DNA of 62,637 nucleotides from Chloroflexota bacterium. Lineage in GTDB: Bacteria > Chloroflexota > Dehalococcoidia > SHYD01 > JACQUQ01. Of this stretch, positions 3,404 through 25,386 are shown piece after piece. The notes beneath the pieces were generated by a model. That model did no database searches and had not been told where the DNA came from. It saw only the letters and a program-made list of their open reading frames with translations. The stretch is from NCBI GenBank assembly GCA_016210175.1, contig JACQUQ010000078.1:1-62637 (forward strand). The letters run 5' to 3'. The first letter of the stretch is position 1, and every line of letters begins with the position of its first letter. The position numbers were made by a program, and so were the translations under genes.

Positions 3404-3433
3404 ACCGACCTCCCGTTGGTGCTCTTCAGTCGC

Positions 3434-4381: not shown

Positions 4382-4427
4382 CGTTCCTCCTTCAGCGCGT
4401 ACGCGCCAGCAAACGTCCGCATCTTCC

Positions 4428-6980: not shown

Positions 6981-6982
6981 GA

Positions 6983-9873: not shown

Positions 9874-11587
9874 CCTCCTGTTCCTCCTGTTCTGCTTCCG
9901 TGCCGTCCAGCACGACCAGTTCCCCCAGCACGAAGGGGTGTGCCCGCTGCTCCTCCGGTGTGCGGCGGTCCACCACCGCCACCCGCCGCACCGCAACACC
10001 CAAGCTACGTGCTGCGCCCGCGATCTGTTCCACGACGTACTGGATGACGGTGGTGCCCCCGGTCAGGTTGACCACGACCTCGCTTGCCTCGACGAGGCTG
10101 CGACGGAACTCGCCATCCAGCAGCGCACGCCCTTCCTGAAAGCCGGTCATGGGGTCTCTCAGTTCCCGCACCACCACCGGAAGCCCCGCCACGTCCGCCG
10201 CAGCCAGCGCGTCCGGAAGCCGCTGCCGTCCCTCGGCCGAAGTGATGACCACGACCCGGTCGGGTCGGACGTGCTGTACCGCCGAGTACAGCACGCCGGG
10301 AGAAAGGCCCAGCGGAGTCACCAGCAGCCGCATGATCCTAGACCGTTGCTGGGCGAGGCGTGGAAGGTCAGGGTCGGCCAGCAGGGCGGCACACTGCTGG
10401 ATGAGGTGGCCCACTTCCGCCACGTCGCCGGGCGTGAGGCGCACTTCGTCCTCGGTCATACCGGCGTGCGCGAACCGGTTGCGACGCTGCGCCACTCCGT
10501 CCCAGACGGTCGCCAGACGCTGCTCGGTAGCCGTAGCCACCCCGCTCCGCACGCGCTGGACCATACCACCGAGCTGGCGCTCCGCGGCCAGGCGTTGGGG
10601 GCGGCCCAGCCACTGCCGGGGACCACTGCTGCGCAGCACCACCAAGCTGACCAGCCACTCCCGCAGGAGCAGCAGCGCCGTTGGCAGGGCGTTCCGTTCA
10701 GCGTACCATTGGACCAGTGCGAGCTGGCGTTGCAGTTCCTCATCAGAGAGTGGCAGGTCCCGCTTGGACGGAGCGGGACGCGTCGCCCATGATGCCACCG
10801 GCCCACTGAGGATCCCCAACGAGCGCCGCCCCACCGATTGCGGACCGGCCTGCTGGGCGAGGGTCTCAACGGCAGCGTGCAACCGCCCGGCGGCCAGCCC
10901 GACCTCTACCGGCAGCCCGGCGGCCAGCGCCGGCGCCAAGTCTTCGATCGCGTCCTTGGCGCGGGAGAGCGCATGATCGCCCTGCCGCTCCTGGAAGAGC
11001 CGGGCCACCTCCTGCCGCAAAGAGTGTGCCACTGGCCGCAGGTCGCCGCTTTCGCGCGCGCTCTGCACTGCGTGGAACCATTCCGTCAAATTGAAGAGGG
11101 CGGTCAGGTCGAGGATCGGCCGCTCTCCCGTCTCCGGGTCTGGCAGTTCGAAGGCCCCATAGTAAATGCCCCGGATCGTGACCCCCCGGTAGGCCGTCAG
11201 GTAGGTGAGCGCGGCCAAATAGACGAAGGGGAGGTGGCGCAGGGCAAAGGTCACGTCAAGGACTACGGACTCCCCCTCCCCTACAGCTTCCACCAGCCGG
11301 TGGAAGGTTTCGAGGAACTCCTCGCGCGTTTTGCCTTCCGGCATGTCCACCGCCTCGGGCTCCAAGCCAGCTTCTGCCAACTCTGCGGCTACTGCCGGAT
11401 ACCATTTGTCCCGAGCGCCGGACGTGACCAGGACACTGGCTTTCCCTCCACGCAGATCCCGCAGCCGCGCCAGGGCAACCGGTGCGAAGCGACTGGCCCA
11501 CGTGCGGTCGTCGAGGGCATAGACCGTCTCGGTGTAGTTGCCCGTTCCGACCGAGCAGACCAGGTGGGGTACCTCCTGCGTCATCAT
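9857..11587 (-). CDS. CARF-HEPN-CARF ancillary effector (TM1812/Csx2-like with second CARF)
   Basis: A 576-aa protein starting MMTQEVPHLVCSVGTGNY, with GAGGAGGG upstream. The N-terminal domain (about 1-160) resembles the DxTHG/TM1812 CARF family: VCSVGTGNYTETVY followed by DVTFALRHLPFVYLAAL, in which the usual His-Gly is Phe-Ala. A helical region follows, with the HEPN RNase motif RNRFAH (His near residue 374). The last 160 residues form another Rossmann-like unit, VVVITSAEGRQRLPDAL and VVNLTGGTTVIQYVVEQI, a motif seen in Csm6/Can1/Card1 CARF domains. Predicted role: RNase activated by cyclic oligoadenylate from Cas10. It sits between cas4 and cmr1. Confidence 0.8.
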   Translation of the reverse strand: MMTQEVPHLVCSVGTGNYTETVYALDDRTWASRFAPVALARLRDLRGGKASVLVTSGARDKWYPAVAAELAEAGLEPEAVDMPEGKTREEFLETFHRLVEAVGEGESVVLDVTFALRHLPFVYLAALTYLTAYRGVTIRGIYYGAFELPDPETGERPILDLTALFNLTEWFHAVQSARESGDLRPVAHSLRQEVARLFQERQGDHALSRAKDAIEDLAPALAAGLPVEVGLAAGRLHAAVETLAQQAGPQSVGRRSLGILSGPVASWATRPAPSKRDLPLSDEELQRQLALVQWYAERNALPTALLLLREWLVSLVVLRSSGPRQWLGRPQRLAAERQLGGMVQRVRSGVATATEQRLATVWDGVAQRRNRFAHAGMTEDEVRLTPGDVAEVGHLIQQCAALLADPDLPRLAQQRSRIMRLLVTPLGLSPGVLYSAVQHVRPDRVVVITSAEGRQRLPDALAAADVAGLPVVVRELRDPMTGFQEGRALLDGEFRRSLVEASEVVVNLTGGTTVIQYVVEQIAGAARSLGVAVRRVAVVDRRTPEEQRAHPFVLGELVVLDGTEAEQEEQEDGPTL

Positions 11588-11669
11588 CAGCCCTCCTCTG
11601 CCACCCACTTACCTCCAAGAGCAACACACTCAGTCCTCAGTCCTCAGCACTCAGCACGCATTTACTCGT

Positions 11670-12293
11670 TCACCACACATCCGGGCACAGATTGCGGAAC
11701 TCGCAGTCCACGCACCTCCCCCGCATCCGGGTGGCCTCCGGAAGCGCCTCCTGCGCGATCGCCGCCCGGATCTCCCGTAAAGCTTTCCGCACCCAGCCCC
11801 GCATGTTCGACGTGATGCGCACCTCCTGGGCCCGCTTCTGGGGGATGAGGTAGATGAAGCCCCGGCGCACCGGACGCCGCCAGACCTCCTCCACCAGCAG
11901 GGCGTACGCCGTCAGCTGGTACTTGTGGTTCAGCCCGACCGCACCCTCGGAGTTCTTGAAGTCCACCGGGATGACCTCCCCCAGCGCCTCGACGACCATA
12001 TCCAGCCGGCCCCGCAGGCCCAGCCGGTCCGAGGACACGGCCACATCGAAGTGGCGCTGACCCTCAGCGAGGCCGTAGGCCCGCAGGCTCCGCCGCTCCT
12101 CCAGCTCGGCGATACGCTCGTGCTCCCGCCGGCCCTCCTCCATCTTGTAGGTGGTGGGCCGGGCCCGCACCGGCAGCAAATACGAGTAGTAGACGATGCG
12201 CGGGCAGTAGGGGTACTGCTTCACGTCGCTCACCGTGAGCATGAGGGGAGCCTCCCCGACGAGGGAGGGGCTAGCGGTCCACTCGGTAGTCAT
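11670..12293 (-). CDS. cas4: Cas4 Fe-S exonuclease
   Basis: A canonical 207-aa Cas4. The first cluster cysteine is in YPYCPRIVYYSYL, the RecB-type nuclease core is IPVDFKNSE with QLTAYALLVEE, and the last three cysteines are in CVDCEFRNLCPDVW. Cas4 trims prespacers with Cas1-Cas2 so that spacers carry the right PAM. Its start overlaps the cas2 end by 23 bases. All catalytic and cluster residues look intact, unlike the second Cas4 (Csa1) near the array. Confidence 0.95.
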   Translation of the reverse strand: MTTEWTASPSLVGEAPLMLTVSDVKQYPYCPRIVYYSYLLPVRARPTTYKMEEGRREHERIAELEERRSLRAYGLAEGQRHFDVAVSSDRLGLRGRLDMVVEALGEVIPVDFKNSEGAVGLNHKYQLTAYALLVEEVWRRPVRRGFIYLIPQKRAQEVRITSNMRGWVRKALREIRAAIAQEALPEATRMRGRCVDCEFRNLCPDVW

Positions 12294-12537
12294 CGGTGAC
12301 CACCTCTTTCATGAGGCGGAGGTCCTTCTCGCACACGGGCACCAGCTGGATGCGCGCCGGCCGCTGCCCGATAATGCGGCGCAGGCGCAGCAGGATCTCC
12401 TGCTGGCGGTTGTGGTTGAGCTCGCCCAGGAAAGCGCTGTACTGGACGCGGGCCAGGCCGTAGTCCAGGCAGGCGTCGGCCACCTTGGCCCGCGTCCCGT
12501 CGTGGGGGATGTCGTAGAGGAGGAGCACGGTGGTCAC
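12271..12537 (-). CDS. cas2: CRISPR adaptation protein Cas2
   Basis: An 88-aa ferredoxin-like protein opening TTVLLLYDIPHDGTRAKVADACLDYGLARVQYSAFLGEL, the classic Cas2 strand-turn-strand with the conserved Asp after the first strand. Cas2 dimers bridge two Cas1 dimers during spacer integration. It is translationally linked to cas4 downstream but separated from cas1 by cas8, cas7, cas5 and cas3. Confidence 0.96.
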   Translation of the reverse strand: MTTVLLLYDIPHDGTRAKVADACLDYGLARVQYSAFLGELNHNRQQEILLRLRRIIGQRPARIQLVPVCEKDLRLMKEVVTDDYRVDR

Positions 12538-12555
12538 TGGACGTATCCTTGGCGG

Positions 12556-14883
12556 TCAGTCGGGAGACATATCGGTGCGCAGGCCGATTTCGGGATCGTA
12601 CGGGAGGTTAATGGTGTTCAGGAACCAATCCTTCTCCCACGACAAGTGCTCGCGGAAGCGGTGCTCTTGCCATTCGGCAATGGGGACGAGAAGCTCGTTG
12701 GCGTGAAGGACAGAGGCTTCCCGCCGTCGTTCGTATTCATTCCGGAGGGCGAGAGGAAGCACTTCTGTGCCCTCGAACAGGTCGTCAAACTGGCGGCCGA
12801 GATCTTCGTCGCTCGCGAACGCCCGCAACGTGTCCAGGCATCCTCGCTGAAAGGTCATGAGAGCGCCCTCCACCCGGCGGATCCATTCCTCCGCCAGACC
12901 ATCCTTATACGCCTGGTCCAGCCACTCGCTCAGGCGGGCTTCGTCAATGTCTTCCCCATCGTGGCCGGACAGGATATCCAAACAGTTCTCGACCAGCCCG
13001 TCGTCGTAAATCCGTTGCCCGCTGCGGGGCTGGGTAAGCACCGTGACCGGCACGATCCCTTTCCTGCCCCGGCGATTGACGCGACCGAAACGCTGGGCCA
13101 GCGCTTCCAGGGGGGCGGGCTCTGTGACGATCCCGTCGAAGTCCAAATCCAGGCTGACCTCAATGACCTGTGTGGCCACCACTGCCAAGGGCCGAGAAGT
13201 CCCCAGTCGGCTGCGGATCACCTCTTCCTTTGCCAGCCGGTCTTCCACGGTGAACCGACTGTGCAGGAGCAGCACGGTTTCGGGGCCGAGCCGGTCCCGT
13301 AGCTCCTGCCAAGCTGTCTGCGCGGTCCGCACAGTGTTGGCGGCGACCAGGAGACGCTGGTTCTTGCGGCAGCGCTCGGCAATATGGTCAAGGATGGAGG
13401 GCGAGAGCAACTCGCCCTCCATGAGCTCAATCCTGTGCCGGCGGAACTCAGCAAAGAGGGATGGTTCCACAGCGAGCCGCTGGAGGCCCAAGTGCTTATC
13501 GAGCAGCCCAGCGAGCCAGGTGGGTGTCGTCGCGCTCATCGAGCAGACGACGCTGCCCCATGTACGCTGGAGTTCGGCTACGAGGCCAACGAGCAAGCCA
13601 AGCCGCTCCGCCTCATACGCATGGACCTCATCGAGGAGAAGGATGCTTCCACTCATTGCAGTCCAGAGGGCTTCATAGCCTCGCACGCGGTAGGCCGCAC
13701 GCAGCAACTGGTACGGTGTCGTGACCCATATCGCAGGCTGGTGCAGACGAGTCAGGTCAGTAGCTCGACGCGCGGCCAAATCCGCCTCCCGCGCTCGGTA
13801 GCCCTTCTGCTCCGTCAATTCCTTGTACAAGACCTGTGCGCTCCTCCCGTGCATGAGCGCGATGGGAGCGCCGGTCAGCCGTTGCAGCCGCGTCCGCATC
13901 GCATTGATACTCGCCTGATAGGGCAGCACGTAAATAAGACTCGCGTGGTGCCGCTCCTCCGTCTGCCTGCGCGCCCAGAGGAGCGCGGCCTCGGTTTTGC
14001 CGCTCCCCGTTGGGGCGACGAACATGATCGGGCCGCTCTGCTGCGCGGCGTCCCGCTGGTGCGAGCGGAGTGCCGAGAGGTTCAGCGTACGCAGGGTTTG
14101 GTCGGCATCTGGAAGGACCAGAGGCGCCAGGGGCGAGGCGTGGGCAGAGCCGAGATGATCCGAGAGCAACACCAGACCGCGCAGCGCCACGGCAGCACGG
14201 TTTTCCGGGCTGTCGGCAGGTTGCGCTCCGAGGCGACGCCACAACCGCTCATAGGCCCGCAGCCCGCGCCGGATCACCGCACTCGCCTCTTCGCAAAAGC
14301 GCTTCGGGTCGGGTGAGGTCGGGACTGCCCTGGGCGCTTCAACGTGCTCCGCGAATCCGAGCTCCGTAATCCACGGGCCGCTCATCGCGGAAAGCCACTG
14401 GGCAACCCCCGTAATCCACTTGTGTTGGATGCTGGCGATCCATTGCTCGATGTCCCAGTCCTCGACAGGAAAGTTGGGATTATAGCGCTCCGCGATGATC
14501 TCCTCAGCATCTCGATGGTGCGAAGCGATTCCCGCCGCGATCCACGGGAAGTCGGGGCCAGTGGGGTCCGCGACCCAGGGGAGGAAGGCCAGCGAGAAGA
14601 CCTCGTGGCGGTGACCTCTCCAGGATGCGCCGGTGCGGAGGTAGTCTTGGAATCCTTGCGTAAGCTTGCCCAGGTCATGGAGCCAGCAGGCCCAGAAGGC
14701 ACGGTGCGATAGTCGAGGCTCGCCCACCAGCTCCGGAAGCTGGGGATGTCGTTGCGCAAGCTGTGCCAAGCGACGCAGCACCTGCCGGGTATGCTGGGTA
14801 ATGGACTCACCAGCCTGGCCGCCGGTACCGCTTTTCGCAAAGGCATCCGCCAGCAAGGTTTGCCAATCGGAGTTACGGACCAT
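12556..14883 (-). CDS. cas3: Type I Cas3 HD nuclease-helicase
   Basis: About 775 aa. The HD nuclease is N-terminal (CWLHDLGK, His69-Asp70; then HRHE and SHHRD). The superfamily-2 helicase has Walker A APTGSGKTEA (290-299), DEVH (418-421), SMSAT and the motif V-VI block QVIEVSLDLDF with QRFGRVNRRG. Cas3 unwinds and degrades DNA marked by Cascade. Three ATGs lie close together; the one at 14883 has GGAG at six-base spacing and was chosen (14886 and 14895 are possible). The start overlaps the cas5 stop by about ten bases. Confidence 0.95.
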   Translation of the reverse strand: MVRNSDWQTLLADAFAKSGTGGQAGESITQHTRQVLRRLAQLAQRHPQLPELVGEPRLSHRAFWACWLHDLGKLTQGFQDYLRTGASWRGHRHEVFSLAFLPWVADPTGPDFPWIAAGIASHHRDAEEIIAERYNPNFPVEDWDIEQWIASIQHKWITGVAQWLSAMSGPWITELGFAEHVEAPRAVPTSPDPKRFCEEASAVIRRGLRAYERLWRRLGAQPADSPENRAAVALRGLVLLSDHLGSAHASPLAPLVLPDADQTLRTLNLSALRSHQRDAAQQSGPIMFVAPTGSGKTEAALLWARRQTEERHHASLIYVLPYQASINAMRTRLQRLTGAPIALMHGRSAQVLYKELTEQKGYRAREADLAARRATDLTRLHQPAIWVTTPYQLLRAAYRVRGYEALWTAMSGSILLLDEVHAYEAERLGLLVGLVAELQRTWGSVVCSMSATTPTWLAGLLDKHLGLQRLAVEPSLFAEFRRHRIELMEGELLSPSILDHIAERCRKNQRLLVAANTVRTAQTAWQELRDRLGPETVLLLHSRFTVEDRLAKEEVIRSRLGTSRPLAVVATQVIEVSLDLDFDGIVTEPAPLEALAQRFGRVNRRGRKGIVPVTVLTQPRSGQRIYDDGLVENCLDILSGHDGEDIDEARLSEWLDQAYKDGLAEEWIRRVEGALMTFQRGCLDTLRAFASDEDLGRQFDDLFEGTEVLPLALRNEYERRREASVLHANELLVPIAEWQEHRFREHLSWEKDWFLNTINLPYDPEIGLRTDMSPD

Positions 14884-15640
14884 CATGTGCTCCATCGAAC
14901 CGGTGCCACACCACGATGCGGCGCAGACCATTTTCCTCCGGGCTCAGCGGGTCTATCGAGAAAATCTCGCCCGGATCGGGTCGCATCGCTGAGGTTCCCT
15001 GGGTTGCTCCCTCACGGACCGCTACCCGGCGCTCCAGCACGACGTAGGGAGCCCACTCCACCCGTCGGCGATCCGTCGGGTCGATGAACCGCGGCATGGT
15101 TGCCATAACACCCACCGGGGTGCGCAGCCGCCAAGTCCAGGGGAGCAGCGTCCCTTCGAGGTAGCCCGATGCGGCCGCTTCCAGGTCCACGACTTGGACG
15201 GTGCGGTAGGCCGCCAGGTCCTGGGACCGACCCAAGACCACCGGGTAGCAGGGCTCGCGGAAGGCGCGCTCCAATTGCTCCAGCCAGCCCGGTGCGTCCA
15301 AGTACAACACCATCCGAGGGAACAGCAAGACCTCCCGCAAGAGCGGGTTGATATTCCCTTCCAGGTTCTTGGTGAACCCCATCGCCCTGTCGAGGCGTCC
15401 GCTGGCCGCCTCCACCAGGTGGGTGTTTTCCAGGTCATCCCCCTTTCCGGCAGCGGTGAAGGAGTAGGCGAACCGCAGCGTCGCCCGGTCGGGGAACTCG
15501 CCGAGCGCGCTGGCACTGTGTCCGTAGACCGTGGCGGGCGGCGGCATGGGAAAGCTAGGCTGCCGCCCCACCAGGAAATGGGGATACCGGAAGGATGTCG
15601 TCGTCCCTTCCAACTCGATGCGGAGCACCTGGCCGGCCAT
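14873..15640 (-). CDS. cas5: Type I-B Cascade subunit Cas5
   Basis: A 255-aa RAMP starting MAGQVLRIELEGTTTSFRYPHFLVGRQPSFPMPPPATVYGHSASALGE, the Cas5 N-terminal pattern in which the first strand is followed by a proline-rich loop. Cas5 binds the crRNA 5-prime tag and anchors Cas8. The start lies one base after the cas7 stop, and its end overlaps cas3. Confidence 0.92.
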   Translation of the reverse strand: MAGQVLRIELEGTTTSFRYPHFLVGRQPSFPMPPPATVYGHSASALGEFPDRATLRFAYSFTAAGKGDDLENTHLVEAASGRLDRAMGFTKNLEGNINPLLREVLLFPRMVLYLDAPGWLEQLERAFREPCYPVVLGRSQDLAAYRTVQVVDLEAAASGYLEGTLLPWTWRLRTPVGVMATMPRFIDPTDRRRVEWAPYVVLERRVAVREGATQGTSAMRPDPGEIFSIDPLSPEENGLRRIVVWHRFDGAHDGP

Positions 15641-15641
15641 G

Positions 15642-16754
15642 CTAGGCCATCCACGCGCTGCTCTGCTCCCCCCCAAGGTCCTCCGTCAACTGCGACAGGA
15701 TGGCACGGGGGTGGTCGAGCCGGTATTCCAGAGGCGGCTGCCGCAGGTCGCTATCTTGGGCGATCTCCTGGAGCGCCTTTTCCAGCGCGCTCCGCTGGTC
15801 GTCGTAGAACCCCTGCACCCAGCCCGCATAGAGCGGTGAAATCATCTGGTCGCCCCAGGCGCGAACCATCTCCTTCAGGGCATCGGTATGGATCCGGAGT
15901 TGCCCATCGGGGCCTGCTCCCACTACATATTGCAGCGGGTCGTTCCCTCCTTTGAAGACGCCTGCCAGGATGACGACCGGTGAGACATCGGTGTAGTGGA
16001 GAGCCTGCTTTGCGCCCCCGGAGACCAGGGCAAGTCCTTTGAGAAGAGCGGCTACCCGCTCAATCCGATCATCGATTTTCAGGCGGTAGCTCTTTTCCTG
16101 TGCGATGTACTCCAGGCCCGCGTCTACCGCCTGCTTGACGCGGTTGTCATCCAGGTTGCGATAGCCTGAACGCTGCACTTCGCTAAAGGTGCCCACCGCA
16201 TGTAGGTTCAGGGAAATGAGGCCCTTCAAGACGGCACGATAGAACTGGTGCTCGTGGGGGACCGGATCCCCTTCGTGCCGGGACATGGTACCGAAGTCGC
16301 GGGTCAGCGTGACGGGTGCGATGGCAATGAGCGGACTCACCCGGAACGGAGACACACGGGTAATCTCGCCGGTCGTGGGCGTCTCGCGGCCTACCCGGGA
16401 CTGATCGGCTTGGCGCGCCGCCGCAGCTTCTGTACGTCGGGAAGGTGCGCGCATGTACCCGAAAAGGTCGTCTTCCCAATACTCAATGGGGTTGCCATCA
16501 GTGTAGGCGACCTTTTGCTCCCGGAAGATGGGTGAGTTGATCCACGGGAGCTCTCCAGCCGCCGCGGCGGAGGCAAGGGTGGTGCGTAGCCAATAGCGGA
16601 ACGCCTGGGCCGAGACATAGGGGTAGGCCCCGTGCCGTGTCTTGATGACCTTGGTTGCAACAGCATTGTCCGTGCTTGCCTCCGGATCTCCCCCGGAGTT
16701 GTTCAAGGCCGATGCCGGCGCATCGACGAGGATGATACCGCTAAGGTACGCCAT
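15642..16754 (-). CDS. cas7: Type I-B Cascade backbone Cas7 (Cst2/DevR family)
   Basis: A 370-aa protein beginning MAYLSGIILVDAPASALNNSGGD, then NAVATKVIKTRHGAYPYVSAQAFRYWLRTTL, the signature of the DevR/Cst2 branch of Cas7. Cas7 polymerises along the crRNA spacer. It lies between cas8 and cas5 in the usual I-B order. Confidence 0.93.
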   Translation of the reverse strand: MAYLSGIILVDAPASALNNSGGDPEASTDNAVATKVIKTRHGAYPYVSAQAFRYWLRTTLASAAAAGELPWINSPIFREQKVAYTDGNPIEYWEDDLFGYMRAPSRRTEAAAARQADQSRVGRETPTTGEITRVSPFRVSPLIAIAPVTLTRDFGTMSRHEGDPVPHEHQFYRAVLKGLISLNLHAVGTFSEVQRSGYRNLDDNRVKQAVDAGLEYIAQEKSYRLKIDDRIERVAALLKGLALVSGGAKQALHYTDVSPVVILAGVFKGGNDPLQYVVGAGPDGQLRIHTDALKEMVRAWGDQMISPLYAGWVQGFYDDQRSALEKALQEIAQDSDLRQPPLEYRLDHPRAILSQLTEDLGGEQSSAWMA

Positions 16755-16789
16755 GATCGTCTACCTCCTGTCTGTCCGATGTCCCGACG

Positions 16790-18328
16790 CTAGACCGTTG
16801 CTCCCACTTCTTCGGCTTGTTCGTCAGCTTCCTCCCGGTCAACCTCGCTCATGATCTCTCGCCCTTCGGGCCGCTGGAACCAGCCGAGCCTGCACAGCTC
16901 CTCGACCATCCGGATACGGAGCAAATCCCACGCCAGACGCCAGTCTGCGCGAGCGACCTCCTCCCCCTCTTCAAAGACCGTGAGGAAATCGTCCAAAGTC
17001 ACCAAGGGCTCTCCCAACCGCTGGACACGCCGCCGATCCGCCCGGATGAGCGTATCCCGGACGGTACGATAGTCAGTGCGACCGGAGAAGAACCGCCGGA
17101 AGATCTGCCGGTCGTTGGTGTCGGCAATATCGGCGGCCACTCGATCTGCCAGCGACCGGATAGCTGTGACACGGACCTGTTCCATTCTCAGCACCTCCTC
17201 AAGAAACATGACCACAAAGGGCCAGCGTTCCTGCTTCAGCAGGGTCTCCGGCGTTAGACCTGCGATCTGCTCAGGGCGCCAGTTGAACCAACGGCGCAGA
17301 AATACACCGGCATTGTCGGGGAGCGTAAACAGGTCGTCGTAAAACCGGTTGCGGAGCGCCCGACGCTCTTCTTCCGGTGGCTCCTCGCCTTCTCGCCGCT
17401 TGCCTTCCCAGGCCCGCCGCACCGTCTGGTTCCACACGCCCCGGTATCGCTGGCCCTGCGCCCGCTTCACGAATTGCACGACGTTCGATGGCAAGGGGTA
17501 GATTTCGATGCCCGGACCCTGCCCGCTGTTGGAGAGGTGGTAGACCGTCAGCGGGCCTGCCTTCTCCACTTCCTCATCTTCACCGTCAGGTGCGCGTTCC
17601 TGCTGCCAGCGAGCCAGTGCTTCGATGACGCGCGTGCGCGGCCCGCGGATGTTGGCGGGCTTCGCGTCGGTCTGCACGCTCAACAACCGCTGGAGGGTTG
17701 CGAAGCGGTCTTGAACCACCGCCCTCAGGATTTCCCTATCCGCGGGGGCGTCTCCAACCTCTACAATGACGGCCTTCCCTTCGCAGTAAGGCGCACCGAT
17801 GGAAAGCGCCTGTAAGGCCACGATGCAGAGGCCGCATAGAGCGAGCCCATGTTGTCCCTGGGGAAAGAAGTTTATGACATCGCGACCTGTAAGCATTGGA
17901 ACTAGGTCACGATACGCTCGGGTTACCCCTTCTTTCTTGCATGAAGGACAGATAGCTTCGTGGTGAACCTGATCGCATCTCCCGCATAGGTTGGCAGGTC
18001 GGACGGACGGGCGGTGACAATACGCACACATGGGTCCGGTCTCGTCGAGCGGCCAGTTGAACGCCCTGAGAACCGCTTGGGCGTACTTTACCTTCTGGTT
18101 AGGAGTCCAACTCGTGTTGAGAAAGTTAGACGTGAAAAGCACAGTAAGGTACCCTGACAGTACCTTGCTGAAGTACCATCGTTCAGCTTCCTGGGCCAAC
18201 CGCTCTAGGTCCTCGACGGTGATCTCCTCCGGCATCTCCTTCCTAGCATAGACCAAGATCGCCGCGATCCCCATGTCGGGGAGCGGGTGTCCCGTCCACC
18301 TCAATCCGGCATACTGCTCACTTACCAT
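16790..18328 (-). CDS. cas8b: Type I-B large subunit Cas8 (Cst1, CXXC-CXXC family)
   Basis: A 512-aa protein with zinc-binding cysteine pairs CAYCHRPSVRPANLCGRC, CPSCKKEG and CGLC near residues 80-190, defining the Cst1-type Cas8. The C-terminal half is helical and charged. Cas8 reads the PAM and starts target DNA opening in Cascade. The start at 18328 is supported by AGGAG eight bases upstream. An earlier in-frame ATG at 18352 would overlap the cas1 stop and has a weaker ribosome site. Confidence 0.88.
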   Translation of the reverse strand: MVSEQYAGLRWTGHPLPDMGIAAILVYARKEMPEEITVEDLERLAQEAERWYFSKVLSGYLTVLFTSNFLNTSWTPNQKVKYAQAVLRAFNWPLDETGPMCAYCHRPSVRPANLCGRCDQVHHEAICPSCKKEGVTRAYRDLVPMLTGRDVINFFPQGQHGLALCGLCIVALQALSIGAPYCEGKAVIVEVGDAPADREILRAVVQDRFATLQRLLSVQTDAKPANIRGPRTRVIEALARWQQERAPDGEDEEVEKAGPLTVYHLSNSGQGPGIEIYPLPSNVVQFVKRAQGQRYRGVWNQTVRRAWEGKRREGEEPPEEERRALRNRFYDDLFTLPDNAGVFLRRWFNWRPEQIAGLTPETLLKQERWPFVVMFLEEVLRMEQVRVTAIRSLADRVAADIADTNDRQIFRRFFSGRTDYRTVRDTLIRADRRRVQRLGEPLVTLDDFLTVFEEGEEVARADWRLAWDLLRIRMVEELCRLGWFQRPEGREIMSEVDREEADEQAEEVGATV

Positions 18329-18345
18329 TGCGCTCTCTCCTGTGA

Positions 18346-19359
18346 TTACCATCTCCCCACAAAGGGCGTATAGGGTTTCCCTTCGCCCCGTACGAAGGTC
18401 GCCAGGTGGCGGGCCTGGCTCATGAGGACCGTCCGCAGCTTGTGCTTCTTGCCCTCGTAGGGCTCTTCCCCATCCAGGCGCTCGTTCACCCGCTCCGCCA
18501 AGAGGCGGCGGGTGGGCTCGGTCAGGCGGCCCTCCTCTACCTCCAGCGTGGCGCCCCGGTTGAGCAGTCCGAACACCGTCCGGTCCACTACCATCTGCCG
18601 GAACTCCTCGATGAGGTCCAGCACCAGGGAGGGCTTGCCCGCCCGGTCGACGTGCAGATACCCGGCATAGGGGTCCAGCCCGGCCAGGAGGATGGCCCGC
18701 TCCACGTGGCTGTACAGGATGCCGTAGCCGTAGTTCAGCAGCGAGTTCACCAGGTCCGTAGCTCCCCGCGTCTCCCGGCCCTCCCAGCCCACGTCCGGCA
18801 CCAGCAGCTCCCGCATGGCTTCCCAGTAGAGCTTGGCCCCGTGGGCCTCCAGGGTCATCAGCTCCTGGCGCAGGGCGTCCACGGTCTCGCTCCGCAGCCC
18901 CTGGACCTGCCGCCCGTAGTCCTGGATGCGGAAGGCCGCTTCCCGGGCCTGGTCGTAGCGGTCGAAGTCCTTCTGCCGCCGGTTCTTGGCCAGGTAGCGC
19001 AGCAGGGTGGCCTGGTTGGCCAGCTTCCCGGCCACGAAGGCCTTGCACAGGGTGACGCCCCGCCCGTCCAGGTAGGCCAGCAGCTGCTCCCGCCGGGTCC
19101 GCACGGTGCCGGTGAGGGCCGGCGAGATGAGGCGGGCGTAGGGCACGCCGCTCCCGGACAAGAAGGTGATGTCGATGCCCCGCTCGGCGCACTCCCGGAT
19201 GACGTCGCTGGAGAGGGAGACGCCCCCGGAGAGCACCAGCACGTGCTCCAGGCCGTAGAGGGGCCGCTCCTCCACCACTTCGCCCTTGAGGGAGACCCGC
19301 ACCCGCTCCGAGTGCTTGCCCACGAAGGCCCCGTATCGCTCCACGATCAGCTCGGCCAT
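18346..19359 (-). CDS. cas1: CRISPR integrase Cas1
   Basis: A 337-aa protein with the three metal ligands in place: Glu in TLEAHGAKLYW, His in AGYLHVDR and Asp in LVLDLIEEFR. LLNYGYGILYSHVE, conserved in Cas1, is also present. The start overlaps the cas6 end by 13 bases. Cas1 sits between cas6 and cas8 rather than beside cas2 and cas4, an unusual split of the adaptation module within one operon. Confidence 0.96.
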   Translation of the reverse strand: MAELIVERYGAFVGKHSERVRVSLKGEVVEERPLYGLEHVLVLSGGVSLSSDVIRECAERGIDITFLSGSGVPYARLISPALTGTVRTRREQLLAYLDGRGVTLCKAFVAGKLANQATLLRYLAKNRRQKDFDRYDQAREAAFRIQDYGRQVQGLRSETVDALRQELMTLEAHGAKLYWEAMRELLVPDVGWEGRETRGATDLVNSLLNYGYGILYSHVERAILLAGLDPYAGYLHVDRAGKPSLVLDLIEEFRQMVVDRTVFGLLNRGATLEVEEGRLTEPTRRLLAERVNERLDGEEPYEGKKHKLRTVLMSQARHLATFVRGEGKPYTPFVGRW

Positions 19360-20303
19360 CGCAACCTCACCCACCCATCGCCCTTGGTACAGTCCTTGCC
19401 GATGTGCGTCACCTCGCTCCAGAGGAGCCAGGGCAGGAATGGCCGCAGGTCGCCCCGGAAGGTGATCTCCCCCACCAGCCCGCCGATGGGCGTGAAACGG
19501 CCCTGCCGGGACGAATAGCTGGGCACGTCCACCCAGCGGGTGCGGTCGTCGGCGACCTGCACCGCCTCGGCCTGCTGCAACAGCTCCTGGTGGTCGAAGT
19601 CGGGCCTGGTCCCCGTTGCCGTCTCGCTCAGGTCGGTCAGGCGACGCAGCACCCGCCGCATGAGCAGCGGGAACGTCAGGCGCTTGACCAGCCGCTTCTC
19701 GACGATCAGGCGCAGCGGGGTCAGCAGCGCGACGGTCACCGCCGGCGGGCTGCCCAGCCGCTCGCACGCCGCCAGCACCCCCGCATGGGTGACGGCCAGC
19801 CCCGGCTGGCGCACCACCCGCTCGCCTGCCTCATAGATGCCTTCCGACTCGCCCGATACCGGGACCTGGGCCGAGATGCGCGCGACAGCGAACCGTCCCG
19901 CGGCCCGGCCCCGGTTCCCGATGCCGCCCTCGCCCATACGCCGGACGCCCAGCACGATATAAGGCAGCAGCGGGCGAGCCTCGCCGAACAGCGTGACGCC
20001 GAAGCTGAAGGCATCGCCGGTCCGGTAGAGTGTCCGGTCTTCCAGCGGCGGCTCCACGGTGCAGGGCCGGGCGACCTCCACCCCGCGGGCGCTCTCCTCG
20101 TCGGCGGTGGCCAGCAGCGCACAGACCGGGCACGCCTGCCGGAGACGGCTGTCGGCGCAGGCGCTCCCGCGCTGGTCCAGGCAGAAGTCCCGGCGTAGGG
20201 CACCGAACAGCGCCCCCCGGAGCATGCTGCCCTTATAGGGCGGCGTGACCATGTCGGTCTCGGCTTTGCACGAGAACTGGAGGACGTGGGCCTGGAGGTT
20301 CAT
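19347..20303 (-). CDS. cas6: CRISPR RNA endoribonuclease Cas6
   Basis: A 318-aa RAMP protein. The N-terminal PYKGSMLRGALFGALRRDFC segment with nearby cysteines (CADSRLRQACPVCALL) and the C-terminal GRFTPIGGLVGEITFRGDLRPFLPWLLW with HIGKDCTKGDGWVRL match the Cas6 family that cuts pre-crRNA at the repeat hairpin. It is the only Cas6 in the window and could supply crRNA to both the I-B and III-B complexes. The repeat hairpin plus 8-nt ACTGAAAG tag fit this role. Confidence 0.9.
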   Translation of the reverse strand: MNLQAHVLQFSCKAETDMVTPPYKGSMLRGALFGALRRDFCLDQRGSACADSRLRQACPVCALLATADEESARGVEVARPCTVEPPLEDRTLYRTGDAFSFGVTLFGEARPLLPYIVLGVRRMGEGGIGNRGRAAGRFAVARISAQVPVSGESEGIYEAGERVVRQPGLAVTHAGVLAACERLGSPPAVTVALLTPLRLIVEKRLVKRLTFPLLMRRVLRRLTDLSETATGTRPDFDHQELLQQAEAVQVADDRTRWVDVPSYSSRQGRFTPIGGLVGEITFRGDLRPFLPWLLWSEVTHIGKDCTKGDGWVRLRWPS

Positions 20304-20343: not shown

Positions 20344-22197
20344 CTACTCCACCATCCGCAGCTTGCAGGGCGTCGGGTCCACCGCCACCAGGAGGGGCCG
20401 CGCCAGGCTGGTGAAGGAGACGATGGCCTGCCCCGGCGCCAGGTTGGGGAGCTGGCCCCACAGGGCGTCGTCGATGCCCCCGATGGAGCGCCGCAGGCGG
20501 CCCACCACGTTGGCGTCGTTGACCTTGTGGATCACCCAGTTGTTGATGAGCCCCAGCACCTCATCGGGCAGGTGCTGCGGCAACTGGGTGATGAAGACCA
20601 GCCCCAGCCACCTTTTCCGCCCTCTGCGGGCAATGCGCGCCACCTGCTGGAACAGCGCCTCCATCTGCGTGATGCGCTCCGCGGACAAGAACTCGTGGGC
20701 CTCTTCGATGAAGACCACGGTGGGCGTGGGCCGCTTCCCCTCGGCCAGGGCCTTCTGGTAGTTCTCATCCTGCTGGACTTGCACGCCCCGGAGGATCTGG
20801 GCGATGACCAGGTTGTTCACGGTGGGCGAGTCGGTATCGCTCAGGTCGATAATGGACACCCGGCCCGGCTGGAGCATCTTCTCGTAGGTGAGGCTGTGGG
20901 CGTTCGGGTTGTCGAACACCTGGAGCCGGTGCAGCCGCCAGAGCTTGCTCAGTAGCACCCGCCAACTGACCTCGCTGTCGGGCTTGACCGCCTGCACCAG
21001 CCGCTTGATCTGCTCCAGGTGGCCCGTAAAGGGCGCATGGTACAGCTTCGGCTCCCCCGCGGCCTTGGACACCAGGTGGAGGAAGACCCCGGCGATATCC
21101 AGGAGGTGGGAGAGGGTCATGCGGGGGTAGCCGGTCTCCATCTCGTCCAGCTCCTGGGCCTCCCGCTCCTCTCGCTGGTTCCCCCGCGCCGGGTAGATGC
21201 CCACGTCCCGCAAGACCTGCTTGCACACGTCGTAGGCCTGGAAGAAACGGCTTTCCTGAGCCGACGACAGCTCCAGGATCTCCTTCACCGCGTAGGGCGA
21301 CAGTGCCCCGAAGTCCAGCCGGAACACGCCGATGCGTGGATGAGCAGGGTTGGCGGTCTCCCGCCCCACCAGGTGGTAGACGAAGGTCCGCTCGACCCCC
21401 GCCGGCACCAGCCCCCGCCGCGCCAGGGCCCGCAGCATGGCCTCATCCTCGGTGGGCTGGTCGATGGCGGTATACTCTCCCTCGGTGTCGAGGAGGATGC
21501 AGGCCACCCCCGCCTGCTGCAACTGGGCGATGAGGCCGGAGACGGTGGTGGACTTGCCGCCGCCGGTGGTACCCAGGATGCCCGTGTGCCGGGGCAACAC
21601 CGCCTTCTTGTCCGCGGGCACCCGCACCTCGATCTCGTCCTGGCCCTCGACCAGGCCCAGGCGAATGGTCCCATCGGTCCGCAGCACCCTGGCCGTGTCC
21701 TCCGGCGTGAGCAGGAACACCGGGCTGTTGGGCACCGGACGCCGGCGGGGCGGCACCACGCTGCCGTCGTCCAGCTCTTCGCCGAGGATCTCCACCTGGG
21801 CACGCCCGTGGTACTGGGGCATAAAGATGCCGCCCCGCACAGTGGCCGTCACCACGATGGGCGCATCGGCCCGCAGGCCGTCCGGCTCGGTAAAGGGACC
21901 CTTCACCACGATCCCCAGGTAGGTGCTCCTATCGGGTCGGCTCTCGATGCGCACCAGGGACTGGTTGGGCACCACCCCGATGCACGCCAGAGGCAGGAGG
22001 ATGGTCACGGTGCCGTCGGTGCTGGAGGGCGTATCGAACATAGTGTAGGCGACCGCGCCCGCGTCGTCGGGATGGCCCTGCCACTCGCCGCCCGCCGCCG
22101 CGATCTCCTCATCCAGCGCGTCGAGGGCCTCCGCCGGGACGGCCTGCACGCCCTCGCCCATGCTCCCCAGGGGAAGCGGATCGCTCCTGTCCGCCAT
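20344..22197 (-). CDS. herA: HerA-like FtsK/HerA superfamily ATPase
   Basis: A 617-aa ATPase. A beta-rich HAS-barrel-like N-terminus (about 60-180) precedes Walker A ILGTTGGGKSTT (209-217), and Walker B is TVVFIEEAHEF (ending near 503). FITQLPQHLPDEVL and a C-terminal AIVSFTSLARPLLVAVD tail follow the HerA/DUF87 pattern. HerA hexamers translocate DNA and usually drive a partner nuclease. The start at 22197 has GGAGG eight bases upstream. It lies 40 bases before cas6 and 19 bases after the NurA-like gene, all in one direction. Confidence 0.88.
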   Translation of the reverse strand: MADRSDPLPLGSMGEGVQAVPAEALDALDEEIAAAGGEWQGHPDDAGAVAYTMFDTPSSTDGTVTILLPLACIGVVPNQSLVRIESRPDRSTYLGIVVKGPFTEPDGLRADAPIVVTATVRGGIFMPQYHGRAQVEILGEELDDGSVVPPRRRPVPNSPVFLLTPEDTARVLRTDGTIRLGLVEGQDEIEVRVPADKKAVLPRHTGILGTTGGGKSTTVSGLIAQLQQAGVACILLDTEGEYTAIDQPTEDEAMLRALARRGLVPAGVERTFVYHLVGRETANPAHPRIGVFRLDFGALSPYAVKEILELSSAQESRFFQAYDVCKQVLRDVGIYPARGNQREEREAQELDEMETGYPRMTLSHLLDIAGVFLHLVSKAAGEPKLYHAPFTGHLEQIKRLVQAVKPDSEVSWRVLLSKLWRLHRLQVFDNPNAHSLTYEKMLQPGRVSIIDLSDTDSPTVNNLVIAQILRGVQVQQDENYQKALAEGKRPTPTVVFIEEAHEFLSAERITQMEALFQQVARIARRGRKRWLGLVFITQLPQHLPDEVLGLINNWVIHKVNDANVVGRLRRSIGGIDDALWGQLPNLAPGQAIVSFTSLARPLLVAVDPTPCKLRMVE

Positions 22198-22216
22198 GGC
22201 TGTCCCTCCCCACACC

Positions 22217-23458
22217 CTAGCGCCGGGTCTGGCGCTCCGTGAAGTACCGAAACGGCTCGCCCGCCTGGAGGTAACCCAGCTGGACCGAGGCATCGAAGGC
22301 GTCCCCGCCGAACATCACCCCGCACACGGTGTCCGCCAGGCTGATGAGCATGGGGAACCCCCGGTGCTCCTGCAACATGCTGTCCGCCAGCGCGATGTGC
22401 GCCGCGCTGTGGGCGTGGTCGCGATGGGCGTAGAAGAGGTGGGCCGGGGCCAGCCGCGAGGTCCGGTACGCCCCGACCACGACCTGGGGGCCAACCTCGC
22501 CGAGAAACTGCCGCAGGCGCGGGAGCACCGCCGTCCACGCGCCCCGGTAGTGCCCCTGGTCCACCAGCCGGCCCATCCAGTCCTCCAGGGTGTCCACGAT
22601 GGCGTACTCCAAAGGCCGGAGCGCATTGCCAATGGTGAGCCAGGCCCGCTCCTTGGGTGCGCTGGGCACGAACACGAACCTCCGGTGCCCCACTACCAGG
22701 TCGTGCAGCAGGTCAAGGCTCTGCTCCACCAGTTCGCTCATGCCGGAGCCGGTCAGCAGCTCATAGGCCAGGGGGTTGCCGTGCCCCATGCGCCAGGGGG
22801 CGGTGGACTTCTGGAGCAGCGCCGCCCGCTCGGCATAGGTCATGATGCCCCGGCGGGCCAGGTCGCTGAGGGTGTCGCTGGGGCTGGTCATGTCATACCC
22901 CGCGCGCTGCTGCCGACGCTCCAGCACCGCCAGAGTCTCGCCGACCGGGTCCACCCCGCCCGCCCGGACGTCGCGCCGGTACACGCGGTGGACCCAGGAA
23001 CCCTGGTCGCCGTGGTAGGCCACCAGGCTCACCCCGATCTGGTGGATGGTGACGGGCAGGGTATCGTGGGTAACGCTGGTGCCGTCGCACGCCTCCACGT
23101 TCCCCGTGAACAGCAGCCCCCGATGGACACGCGCCACCTCCTCGGCGGTGGTCTGGTAGACCCCGGCGCCCGGCGGGGCGTGGGCGCGCTCGCGCAGTCG
23201 GGGAAAGACCTGCTGGCGGATGCGCTTGGTGTACGCGCTCTCCTGCCGGACCGCCAGCGCGATCTCCCGCTCCGTGCGACCATAGAGGCTGAACAGGTCT
23301 TCCCCTGGACGCCAGCTGCCCAGGTCCAGGGTCTGGGACAGCGGTTCCCCCGTTGCGGCCTGGTAGTCATCGGACCCGATCATCACCAGGTCCGGCGGTA
23401 CCGGCGGCACGCTAAGGTCTCCCATCCCGGTATGTTGCTCAGGACTACGCGGGTGCAT
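22217..23458 (-). CDS. Putative NurA-like nuclease partner of HerA
   Basis: A 413-aa protein without a clear family assignment. The stretch NVEACDGTSVTHDTLPVTIHQIGVSLVAY (Asp near 125) resembles the first active-site motif of NurA nucleases (a strand ending in Asp-Gly-Ser/Thr), and ALRPLEYAIVDTLEDWM holds a later acidic pair. NurA normally sits next to HerA and resects DNA ends together with it, and this gene is immediately upstream of herA in a likely operon. The nuclease call rests on context plus this partial motif. Confidence 0.5.
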   Translation of the reverse strand: MHPRSPEQHTGMGDLSVPPVPPDLVMIGSDDYQAATGEPLSQTLDLGSWRPGEDLFSLYGRTEREIALAVRQESAYTKRIRQQVFPRLRERAHAPPGAGVYQTTAEEVARVHRGLLFTGNVEACDGTSVTHDTLPVTIHQIGVSLVAYHGDQGSWVHRVYRRDVRAGGVDPVGETLAVLERRQQRAGYDMTSPSDTLSDLARRGIMTYAERAALLQKSTAPWRMGHGNPLAYELLTGSGMSELVEQSLDLLHDLVVGHRRFVFVPSAPKERAWLTIGNALRPLEYAIVDTLEDWMGRLVDQGHYRGAWTAVLPRLRQFLGEVGPQVVVGAYRTSRLAPAHLFYAHRDHAHSAAHIALADSMLQEHRGFPMLISLADTVCGVMFGGDAFDASVQLGYLQAGEPFRYFTERQTRR

Positions 23459-23553
23459 GCGCGTCCTACCTGTCCTGGAGGTCCGTGTGCCCTCCTTCTA
23501 GGGAGTTCCCACCATACGAGCGAAGTGCGACACCCCACACCGCGGCCCGCCCG

Positions 23554-24300
23554 TTAGCGGCCCAGCCATTCCCGGAAAGACGGCCCGCCCCACCAGGCGC
23601 GGGCCAACCCCGCGCCGTAGGACGCCGCCACCGCCTGCGGCAGTCCGAAGTCGGTGGTGAGCGCCGCGACGAGGTGCCGTCGTCCCGCAGCAAACGCCAC
23701 CGGGCGCCCTGACAGGGCAACGCGCCGCTCCACCTCGGCATCCGGCGCCAGCAGTTCCAGGGCCAGCCGGTCGGCCTGGGCCTCGGCGTCCGCCACGGGG
23801 CCACAGCCCAGGACGCCGTCCGGTCGGCGCTCCATCAGGTGCGTGTGGGCGCCCATGGGCGCCTGGCAGAGGATGGCGTCAATCCGCTCGGTTGCCGTGG
23901 GTGGCCGCCGGCCGTCGAACACCTCCAGGAGAGACCGGCCCAGCCGCTGGACCGCGCGCCGGCGCGGCTCTTGGTAGTCCAGCAAGAAGTGGGCGACTTC
24001 GTGGGCGAGCGAGAACCGCTGTTCGTCGGCAGGGTCGGTCCCGTCGAGCAGCACGCACCCGCTCCCCCCGTAGGCGACCAGACAGCCGTGTAGCGGGCGG
24101 TCCGGCCCCCCCGCGCAGAAGGGGAGACCACGGGCGCGCAACCACGCCTCGGCATCCCGCACCCACAGGCGCGGCAGCTTCGCCACCATCAGGGGCAGCG
24201 CCCAGAGGACGGCCCCCTCCAGGCGACGCGGGAAAGGCTCTGGCCCGCCCGCAGCAGCCCAAAACTCCTGTGCGATGCGCTCCAGCCGCGGCTCCGTCAT
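23554..24300 (-). CDS. ImmA/IrrE-family metallopeptidase
   Basis: A 248-aa protein with the zinc-protease motif HEVAHFLLDY and a downstream acidic AEAQADRLALELL helix that supplies the third ligand in this family. ImmA/IrrE proteases cut or inactivate repressors after a DNA-damage or invasion signal. The ATG at 24300 overlaps the stop of the HTH-type gene (ATGA), making that protein the probable partner. It ends 95 bp before the NurA-like gene, in the same direction. Confidence 0.85.
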   Translation of the reverse strand: MTEPRLERIAQEFWAAAGGPEPFPRRLEGAVLWALPLMVAKLPRLWVRDAEAWLRARGLPFCAGGPDRPLHGCLVAYGGSGCVLLDGTDPADEQRFSLAHEVAHFLLDYQEPRRRAVQRLGRSLLEVFDGRRPPTATERIDAILCQAPMGAHTHLMERRPDGVLGCGPVADAEAQADRLALELLAPDAEVERRVALSGRPVAFAAGRRHLVAALTTDFGLPQAVAASYGAGLARAWWGGPSFREWLGR

Positions 24301-24773
24301 TGCTGCTCCGGCGGCCCGCCCTCCGCGCCCGGTGCGGCGGCATCCTCCGTCGGCGCGCCGGAAGCCCCTGGCTCTGTGGGCCCGGCCTCCGGGGCCGCGC
24401 TCGCGCCGCGGTCGCGGGCGGCCAGCAGCATCCCCCGGTCGTCGCAACGGTCCTGCTGCGGCCCGGCCCGGCGCAGGGTGCGGACCACGTCTACCTCCCG
24501 CAGCAGTTGGGCCAGCCGTTCGGCGCGCGCCCCCACGTGCTGCGCAATACGCTCAACCTCGCTGCGGAAGTCTGCTCCCGCAGGGTCCGGCCGCCGGCAG
24601 AGCGCGAGCCGGGGCAATTGTTCCGGTGAACAGCCGAGCAAGTCCGCCAGGGCTTCCTCTCCCACCTGATGCAACTCCATGTATGCGGCCAGATCGCGCG
24701 CGACAAAAAAGGGACGCGCTGCCGCCCGCTGCGCCGCCCGCCGGAGGAACCCGAAGTCGCGACGTTTACTCAC
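24297..24773 (-). CDS. Putative HTH regulator paired with ImmA/IrrE
   Basis: A 158-aa protein. Residues about 25-60 (YMELHQVGEEALADLLGCSPEQLPRLALCRRP) resemble an XRE-like helix-turn-helix. A helical segment follows, and then a low-complexity tail rich in Ala, Pro, Gly and Glu from about residue 120. It overlaps the sigma-factor gene by eight bases and the protease gene by four. Role inferred from the pairing: DNA-binding repressor or antitoxin that the protease inactivates. Confidence 0.6.
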   Translation of the reverse strand: MSKRRDFGFLRRAAQRAAARPFFVARDLAAYMELHQVGEEALADLLGCSPEQLPRLALCRRPDPAGADFRSEVERIAQHVGARAERLAQLLREVDVVRTLRRAGPQQDRCDDRGMLLAARDRGASAAPEAGPTEPGASGAPTEDAAAPGAEGGPPEQQ

Positions 24774-25386
24774 GGAACTGTTCTCCCCATCGCTGGAGGC
24801 GCTTCTTGATCCGGTCCTTGTGCCGCTTCACGATCCTCCGCTGCTGTGCCACGTCGAGCCGTTCCAGTCCCAGCACCGCGCTATAGGCGGCGGTGCGGCG
24901 CTCCCCCTCGAAAATGAGTTGGAGAAGCTGGCGGTCCAGCGGATCGGGGAAGGCTTGGAGCAGCCGCTGCTCCCACTCCCTCGCCGCCCACTCCCTGGCA
25001 ACCACCTCGGCGGGGTCGGTCGCTTCCTCTATGAGCGTATTCCGGTCTCCTCCGCGTTGTGCGACGTCGTCCAGGGGAAGGGTCCGTCCGGAGCGCCGGT
25101 CCTCCCGCGCCCAGGCGTTCTGGAGGTCACGCCAGGCGGACATTGTGAGGTAGGCCAGGAGGCTGCCCCTGGTGGGATCGTAGTGGGAGGGGCCTTCGAT
25201 ATAGTCCATGAGGGCATCCGTGGCGGCGTCATACAGTGCCATGTCGTCCCACGGCCCCCGCAAGCGGGCGCGCAGTCGCCGTATCAGGCGCTCCAGATAC
25301 GCCTCAGCCAGGTCCTCCGGGGCGACCGGGTCGCACGCGCGGAGGCGCTGATGGATCTGAAGCTCGAACGGCGTTGGTGCGGTCAT
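24766..25386 (-). CDS. RNA polymerase sigma factor, ECF-like
   Basis: A 206-aa protein with a region-2-like block (ALYDAATDALMDYIEG, YDPTRGSLLAYLTMSAWRDLQNAWARED) and a region-4-like C-terminus (PLDRQLLQLIFEGERRTAAYSAVLGLE, VKRHKDRIKKRLQRW). It is the first gene of a three-gene overlapping run (sigma, HTH, protease) immediately upstream of the HerA/Cas operon. No separate anti-sigma gene is visible; the HTH protein or protease could fill that role. Confidence 0.8.
   Translation of the reverse strand: MTAPTPFELQIHQRLRACDPVAPEDLAEAYLERLIRRLRARLRGPWDDMALYDAATDALMDYIEGPSHYDPTRGSLLAYLTMSAWRDLQNAWAREDRRSGRTLPLDDVAQRGGDRNTLIEEATDPAEVVAREWAAREWEQRLLQAFPDPLDRQLLQLIFEGERRTAAYSAVLGLERLDVAQQRRIVKRHKDRIKKRLQRWGEQFRE

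Follow-up and report, generated by a model that had tools for sequence, protein, structure and literature searches.

The closest described relatives of the system studied here are the HerA-NurA end-resection complexes of T. kodakarensis, D. radiodurans and Sulfolobus (structure and mechanism: PMC12977600), the HerA-NurA-like pair TdpAB, and the CapH/CapP and DdrO/PprI(IrrE) switches, in which a helix-turn-helix (HTH) protein is encoded next to an M78 peptidase. For papers cited by PMC number, our statements refer to the parts of their text that were consulted. In the case of PprI and CapP, single-stranded DNA (ssDNA) triggers cleavage of an HTH repressor (PMC10904395; PMC13373217). The IrrE/PprI peptidase of Deinococcus senses ssDNA (PMC10904395), and switches of the CapW/BrxR and CapH+CapP families were found on BREX, Pycsar, CBASS and DISARM operons (PMC13373217). 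Here, we analyzed a contig of 62,637 nucleotides from a Chloroflexota bacterium (JACQUQ010000078.1, assembly GCA_016210175.1; this whole stretch is hereafter called the window), which carries herA and a gene for a 413-amino-acid protein next to cas6. These two genes belong to a five-gene module that encodes, in this order, a sigma factor of extracytoplasmic function (ECF)-like type, an HTH protein, an M78/IrrE-type peptidase, a NurA-fold protein and HerA. The module is real, conserved and mobile; it is of HerA-NurA type, has a regulatory cassette of its own and is repeatedly coupled to CRISPR. As judged by titles and the beginnings of abstracts, searches of the open-licence literature listed no description of the five-gene unit, its switch or the DNA element described below.

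Like the HerA-NurA resection complexes, the module combines an adjacent HerA-clade ATPase with a NurA fold, shares the Asp-Gly of motif I and aligns with Z scores of 12.7-17.4. It differs from them in that the partner of HerA has neither a PF09376 nor a profile-profile match, in that a sigma/HTH/peptidase cassette and a private element are added, and in that it is patchy, mobile and found in a genome that also encodes a canonical NurA. With Z 14.2, TdpB (8wfd) belongs to the solved structures that come closest in fold, but the neighbors of the module differ from those of TdpAB, a pair linked to phosphorothioate. The similarity to the CapH/CapP and DdrO/PprI switches lies in the adjacent HTH and M78 peptidase genes, the intact HExxH plus Glu site and the profile matches to IrrE and CapP. 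However, the module couples a sigma factor to this switch, and its effectors are the NurA-like protein and HerA (and cas genes).

A herA-nurA paralog linked to, or coregulated with, CRISPR genes has been described in archaea. Indeed, the nurA-csm6-herA cluster of Pyrobaculum lies near CRISPR arrays, and a role in adaptation was proposed (PMC3396285), while in Sulfolobus the adaptation genes are coactivated by Csa3a together with herA and nurA (PMC10013973). Unlike the module, both systems are archaeal, the Pyrobaculum cluster includes csm6, and the consulted text of either paper describes neither a sigma/HTH/M78 cassette nor a comparable element. The FLSHclust survey similarly names NurA and HerA as putative CRISPR auxiliary genes (PMC10910872, Fig. 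6D legend), but that text gives no gene order, regulator or promoter, and its families may or may not be those of the module. Finally, HerA/FtsK capture systems (PMC10853773, PMC12839542) are built differently, and NurA occurs 0 times in either main text.

Architecture and components of the module

In the window, all five genes lie on the minus strand. The sig gene (24766..25386; 206 amino acids; Sigma70_r2, E 1.8e-4) is followed by the gene for the small HTH protein (24297..24773; 158 amino acids; Xre-like-HTH, E 0.2), which overlaps both sig and the gene of the M78/IrrE-type zinc peptidase (23554..24300; PF06114, E 9.3e-7). Next come the gene of the NurA-fold protein, here called nurA-like (22217..23458; 413 amino acids; a predicted nuclease, based on a structure model and matches to solved NurAs), and herA (20344..22197; 617 amino acids; a HerA/FtsK-clade translocase by PF01935 and PADLOC HerA). 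The open reading frame (ORF) of herA opens at 22293, but the gene naturally starts at the ATG at 22197, 19 bp from nurA-like; its stop at 20344 lies 40 bp before cas6. An earlier annotation made from the sequence alone (the sequence-only reading) had placed herA and the 413-amino-acid gene in just this way and described them as a pair. Both genes are real, but the unit is larger, since the peptidase, the HTH protein and the sigma factor are encoded upstream on the same strand.

All five genes were found in this order and on one strand in 41 of 47 distinct genomes. Among the six incomplete modules, one has a fused HTH-M78 gene and no sigma factor was found (L053), one has broken frames (L063), one is degenerate and has no upstream genes (L064), one is split over two contigs (L102, with sig-HTH-M78 on L199), and two are cut by contig ends (L052 and a fragment in G287). 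Median gaps in the 41 complete loci are -8 bp (sig-HTH), -4 bp (HTH-M78), +79 bp (M78-nurA-like) and +21 bp (nurA-like-herA), and matches for sig, HTH and M78 occur in order at 41/42 loci. In a sample of relatives, the 413-amino-acid family was present in 5/60 genomes including the window's own, i.e., in 4/59 others, and the sigma factor, HTH protein and M78 peptidase are encoded upstream in 4/4 other carriers of the same class. Scanning species genomes yielded 32 named loci, of which two duplicate genomes already in the set, and a draw across phyla found the family in 20/400 genomes (one of the 20, a weak 88-amino-acid fragment, was left out). Eleven phyla are represented among these named loci: Chloroflexota, Acidobacteriota, Actinomycetota, Bacillota, Bacteroidota, Lindowiibacteriota, Myxococcota, Nitrospirota, Planctomycetota, Pseudomonadota and Thermodesulfobacteriota. 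Most carriers are metagenome-assembled genomes, and single phylum placements may be wrong. Phyla are intermixed in the tree, and no relatives were found in PLSDB plasmids. One divergent module (L103, G079) has the five genes in their usual order but scores weakly against the profiles and sits on the longest branch of the tree; it may represent a second subfamily.

The identity of HerA is unambiguous: it matched PF01935 (E 3.2e-19), PF05872 (3.4e-12) and PADLOC HerA (best 1.3e-29), and its central domain carries conserved Walker A and B motifs (GxTGGGKST and EEAHEF; G209-T218 and E498-E499). Searches of Pfam, NCBIfam, PADLOC, PHROGs and the PDB sequences with the 413-amino-acid protein alone gave no match. 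Similarly, a profile of 31 relatives retrieved nothing credible among PDB sequences, and 0/31 members had a credible match to PF09376 or to another Pfam family; in the window's genome, PF09376 finds another gene, the canonical NurA (G000:C272, E 5.1e-24). A structure model built from 31 sequences reached a pLDDT of 87.2 and a pTM of 0.84 (pLDDT 51 with 5 sequences only), and all ten Foldseek matches at E 0.001 or better were NurA chains, whereas viral structures yielded no relative at E 0.001. Among the matches listed, realignment gave Z 17.4 for NurA 2ygk (280 residues, root mean square deviation 4.7), 17.2 for the NurA chain of T. kodakarensis HerA-NurA (9x1m), 14.2 for TdpB and 12.7 for D. 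radiodurans NurA; the first non-NurA fold was endonuclease V (Z 11.2), followed by Argonautes (about 10).

The partial NurA motif noticed in the sequence-only reading, EACDGT, corresponds to residues 122-127. Its D125 is invariant in 35/35 relatives and G126 is present in 34/35, and this pair aligns with D88-G89 of NurA in 4/4 alignments, as does a C-terminal GFP/GYP. E210 is found in 35/35 relatives, within the expected helix. Two observations speak against a NurA assignment. The third acidic position of NurA falls, by secondary structure, on H226 (34/35), a region in which the alignments disagree, and hhalign against 20 canonical NurAs gave a probability of 2.7%, i.e., no profile link. The proposed HMM-HMM comparison thus did not connect the protein to NurA, and the relation is visible through the fold instead. 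This fits the earlier suggestion of a divergent NurA-type partner: as far as fold and partner show, the protein is NurA-like, yet outside PF09376 by sequence, and is predicted to be a nuclease.

As to the switch proteins, Sigma70 region 2 is matched by 16/27 members of the sig family (best 5e-10), and the sig profile matched solved ECF sigma factors at E 0.002-0.94 (best 0.002). No Sigma70 region 4 match was obtained among the listed families; a conserved C-terminal block is present. HTH_31 was matched, weakly, by 6/29 HTH-protein members (best 3.4e-5), and L053 and L056 encode the HTH and the peptidase as one fusion protein. The HExxH motif and the third ligand Glu of the peptidase are intact (H100, E101, H104 and E173, each in 33/33), and its profile matches IrrE (E 0.0043), CapP (E 0.031) and HTH-fused IrrE relatives. 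By analogy with PprI and CapP, HTH cleavage in the module may be triggered by ssDNA. The fusion in L053 (7990-9843, Geodermatophilaceae), where the module sigma factor was not detected, has 617 amino acids and an N-terminal CxxC stretch with a nearby His, which we presume to resemble a zinc anti-sigma domain.

A bipartite promoter-like element

The gap between the peptidase gene and nurA-like (median 79 bp) harbors a bipartite element, TGTCG(A/C)ACTT-N13/14-GGAA(TA). It scores at least 12 of 16 in 27/41 gaps, with a spacer of 13 or 14 in 26/27. In 100 shuffles of each gap, this score was never reached in 26/27 gaps and was reached by 5 shuffles in L096. The copy of the window (23505..23532, minus strand) reads TGTCGCACTT-N13-GGGAAC and scores 14/16, a value reached by 0/100 shuffles. 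A second copy lies inside sig, about 320-380 nt from its start; in the window it is degenerate (25036..25065, minus strand, sig nucleotide 322).

The valine codon at the in-sig element is GTC in 23/23 cases compared to 15/27 for a control, the invariant Val186. Furthermore, the third positions of codons 107-110 and 115-116, which are element letters, rank within the top ten of the gene for conservation in 27 relatives, and third-position conservation peaks at this site. Exact copies in 46 module loci were co-oriented with the genes in 43 cases and opposite in none. At 14 of 16, the module loci (845,742 bases) contained 61 matches compared to 3 for the backwards control. The region before sig gave little signal when compared with the gap of the same locus (longest common substring, mean 6.0 versus 4.2). 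The consensus was read by eye from the same gaps that were first counted, so that the gap count is partly circular. The in-sig copy, the codon bias, the orientation and the control counts provide support that is independent of this count. Because of its asymmetry, fixed spacing and orientation, we argue that the element is very probably a private promoter of the module, which most simply would be read by the module's own sigma factor. Its first box, GAACTT, presumably resembles ECF -35 boxes. The conserved element also offers a simple DNA search string for regulon members.

A second exact copy in the window's genome (L159, G000:C116) precedes small ORFs of 67 and 106 amino acids, the latter perhaps antitoxin-like. 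In two species of one genus (L169, G047; L171, G007), the element stands before orthologous proteins of about 142 amino acids and unassigned function, which are possible extra regulon members.

CRISPR genes behind herA and behind the element

A cas operon lies downstream of herA in 12/47 genomes; in 7/47 the contig stops upstream of the herA end, at it or no more than 500 bp beyond it, leaving 40 evaluable. The operons are of different types. Behind herA we found type I-B in the window, a I-B/MYXAN-like set in L042, Cas8a (I-A-like) in L036 and L050, cmr1-cas10 (III-B) in L093, I-G with cas4/cas1-cas2 first in L058, and cas4/cas1-cas2-cas12b (V-B) in L048. In L044 and L096 the genes are cas4-cas1-cas2 alone, in L054 cas6-cas3, in L101 cas6-cas1, and in L066 WYL-cas3 with cas6 and cas1 further on. 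Co-directional gaps from herA to cas measure 3 bp (L048), 5 bp (L036), 45 bp (L093), 118 bp (L050), 137 bp (L044) and 283 bp (L042). Cas1 was found within 15 kb in 10/46 other genomes compared to 0.33 expected (Poisson p 3e-12), an excess to which defense-island clustering also contributes, and parsimony on the tree requires at least 8 changes of cas state.

Two counts argue against a tight coupling: a cas operon behind herA is lacking in 28/40 evaluable modules, and cas genes near the module are found in 0/4 same-class relatives. With 12/47 genomes and none of these relatives, the presence of the module in cas loci is not consistent. CRISPR linkage is thus recurrent, not obligatory. The link to CRISPR loci put forward in the sequence-only reading stands in that it exceeds chance, but its restriction to I-B/III-B loci does not, as I-G, V-B, I-A-like and lone adaptation genes occur as well. 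Absence from the cas loci of close relatives, which that reading had named as counterevidence, holds within the class and fails across phyla. The three roles that it considered, namely production of prespacer substrates, degradation of invader DNA and an independent antiphage system, are all compatible with the sequence. The idea that the CRISPR neighborhood is incidental fitted the four same-class relatives but is rejected in view of the cas operons behind herA across the wider sample.

In the window, cas6 (19347..20303; PADLOC Cas6, 4.4e-79) and cas1 (18346..19356; PADLOC Cas1b, 2.6e-93; PF01867 at 18490-19350) are followed by cas8b, cas7, cas5, cas3 and cas2 (type I-B; 12319..18343, contiguous) and then by cas4, csx1 (CARF-HEPN), cmr1, cas10, cmr3, cmr4, cmr6 and a second cas4 (2497..12293). 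All of these genes lie on the minus strand, and their order therefore gives a I-B set, then a III-B set. A CRISPR array of 8 repeats with a spacing of 72-76 nt is located at 1648..2223 (strand not given).

Across the 47 genomes, we counted 74 exact copies of the element, of which 42 lie in modules and 32 outside them, compared to 67 for the backwards control. Among 21 examined sites of the 32 outside modules, 8 stand just before cas genes: before cas2-cas4 (G243, G095), cas1 (G129), cas6-cas2 (G454), cas4-cas1 (G462), two cas3 operons (G028) and cmr1 (G047), the cas names in G028 and G047 coming from reading the protein sequences and not from profile matches. In G243, G129, G028 and G047 these copies are on contigs other than that of the module. 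Within 1.2 kb upstream of Cas1/Cas2 we found 5/32 copies in module genomes and 0/40 in 139 module-minus genomes (Fisher p 0.014).

Several results weigh against a broad regulon. Beyond the modules, exact copies do not outnumber those of the control (32 versus 67), and the copies elsewhere are therefore mostly due to chance. One of the 40 module-minus copies was read individually, that of G181 (82% complete), and it stands just before cas8b; counting it raises the Fisher p to 0.08. Furthermore, 20 unselected cas loci of module genomes contained 7 matches versus 6 for the backwards control, with a single weak copy in promoter position (L209, before cas3); 20 module-minus cas loci contained 2 versus 3. 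Given the 7 versus 6 in the unselected loci, we rejected the proposal that every cas operon in a module genome is marked by the element. By these sequence counts, the element is carried by part of the cas operons, and most lie outside any such regulon.

Proposed mechanism and alternatives

As the best explanation, which we consider moderately probable, the module would be a DNA-stress-induced DNA-degradation unit that supports CRISPR, is horizontally mobile and consists of two blocks, a switch (sig, HTH, M78) and an effector (NurA-fold protein, HerA). Its sequence-based parts are the gene content and order, the NurA fold, the intact M78 site, the directional element and the recurrent cas placement. 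Immunity is the likeliest purpose of the module, and prespacer supply is an attractive, unproven possibility. DNA stress, e.g., ssDNA during phage attack, would activate the peptidase, as with PprI/IrrE and CapP, and the peptidase would cleave the HTH protein, which may restrain the module sigma factor or its promoters. The sigma factor would then fire the element, the in-sig copy raising the HTH protein and the peptidase and the gap copy raising the NurA-like protein and HerA. In the window, a transcript from the gap copy (23505-23532) could continue from nurA-like and herA into cas6-cas1-cas8b-cas7-cas5-cas3-cas2. A HerA hexamer would feed double-stranded DNA to a NurA-like dimer for cutting; invader DNA would thereby be destroyed, and the resulting fragments might serve Cas4-Cas1-Cas2.

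More tentatively, and with somewhat less than even chances in our view, the sigma factor may be an ECF-like one dedicated to immunity, held by the HTH protein until the protease cuts, whose private promoter fires the NurA-like-HerA shredder together with the CRISPR operons of some hosts. The same tentative estimate covers its parts: adaptation and effector operons of unrelated types would be included, DNA degradation and spacer capture would be switched on jointly, and each module would carry two copies of the promoter, one of them within the sig coding sequence. Two open questions are concerned, namely, how cells decide when to express the CRISPR adaptation machinery and what supplies prespacer DNA where the RecBCD/AddAB model does not apply. 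Both become directly testable with a compact unit in which a dedicated sigma factor is joined to a DNA-stress sensor, a shredding pair and, in many hosts, cas operons.

The alternative that survives best, to which we give roughly one chance in three, is a stand-alone antiphage or antiplasmid nuclease with an inducible switch, whose cas neighbors reflect defense clustering and read-through with no shared mechanism. The 28/40 evaluable modules without a cas operon behind herA suit this alternative, as do defense- or recombination-like neighbors elsewhere, namely UvrD (L043, L049), TmtA (L049), DEAD/RNase H and DprA-like proteins (L067) and AddA/AddB-like proteins (L014), and switches of the CapH+CapP type are known from immune operons (PMC13373217). 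However, a cas operon repeatedly stands right behind herA, co-directional and with gaps of 3-283 bp in six loci, and copies of the element are also found in front of cas genes away from the module, on a different contig in the four genomes named above.

We regard it as unlikely that the module is a helper of CRISPR adaptation, in which HerA and the NurA-like protein make prespacers or mend the array after insertion, coinduced with cas4-cas1-cas2. Adaptation genes are indeed common to many linked loci (alone in L044 and L096, first in L048 and L058), the element directly precedes them in G243, G095, G462, G454 and G129, and Csa3a in Sulfolobus (PMC10013973) and the Pyrobaculum cluster (PMC3396285) are precedents. 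However, PF01867 finds no Cas1 in 10/53 family-carrying genome handles, which argues that adaptation is not the sole role, and effector genes, too, have copies in front of them (cas3 in G028, cmr1 in G047).

It is still less likely that the element is the operator of the HTH protein or a nuclease mark instead of a promoter of the module sigma factor. The pairing of sigma factor and promoter is our own deduction, and the element may instead bind the HTH protein or another factor; a copy within a coding sequence would be unusual for a promoter. On the other side stand its asymmetry, the co-orientation in 43/43 copies, the near-fixed spacing of 13/14 nt and the first box, which we presume to be ECF -35-like. 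A second, damage-inducible end-resection repair pathway unrelated to immunity is the least probable: HerA-NurA is a known resection pair and the peptidase resembles the ssDNA-sensing IrrE/PprI of Deinococcus (PMC10904395), but a canonical NurA is already encoded in the genome of the window, and the patchy spread (4/59 other relatives; 20/400 genomes) and phyla-mixing tree suit mobile defense genes better.

Some further observations were made at individual loci. Directly behind herA, AddA/AddB-like helicase-nuclease genes, named by reading, lie on the same strand in L014 (1329-7786, G058), and a TmtA-like protein of 1,489 amino acids and a UvrD helicase are encoded in L049 (9986-17034); the latter two are possibly a further defense partner. 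In L198 (9716-11100) and L175 (G121), a sigma N terminus stands beside a HerA C terminus, a module remnant that looks as if the middle had been deleted. It lies upstream of type III-B-like genes, with an element copy about 390 bp before cas6. Finally, the terminal cas4 of the window (Cas4a/Csa1-like; 2497-3403, minus strand) is split over two reading frames, with the C-terminal part apart from the N-terminal part, which suggests a frameshift or an assembly error.

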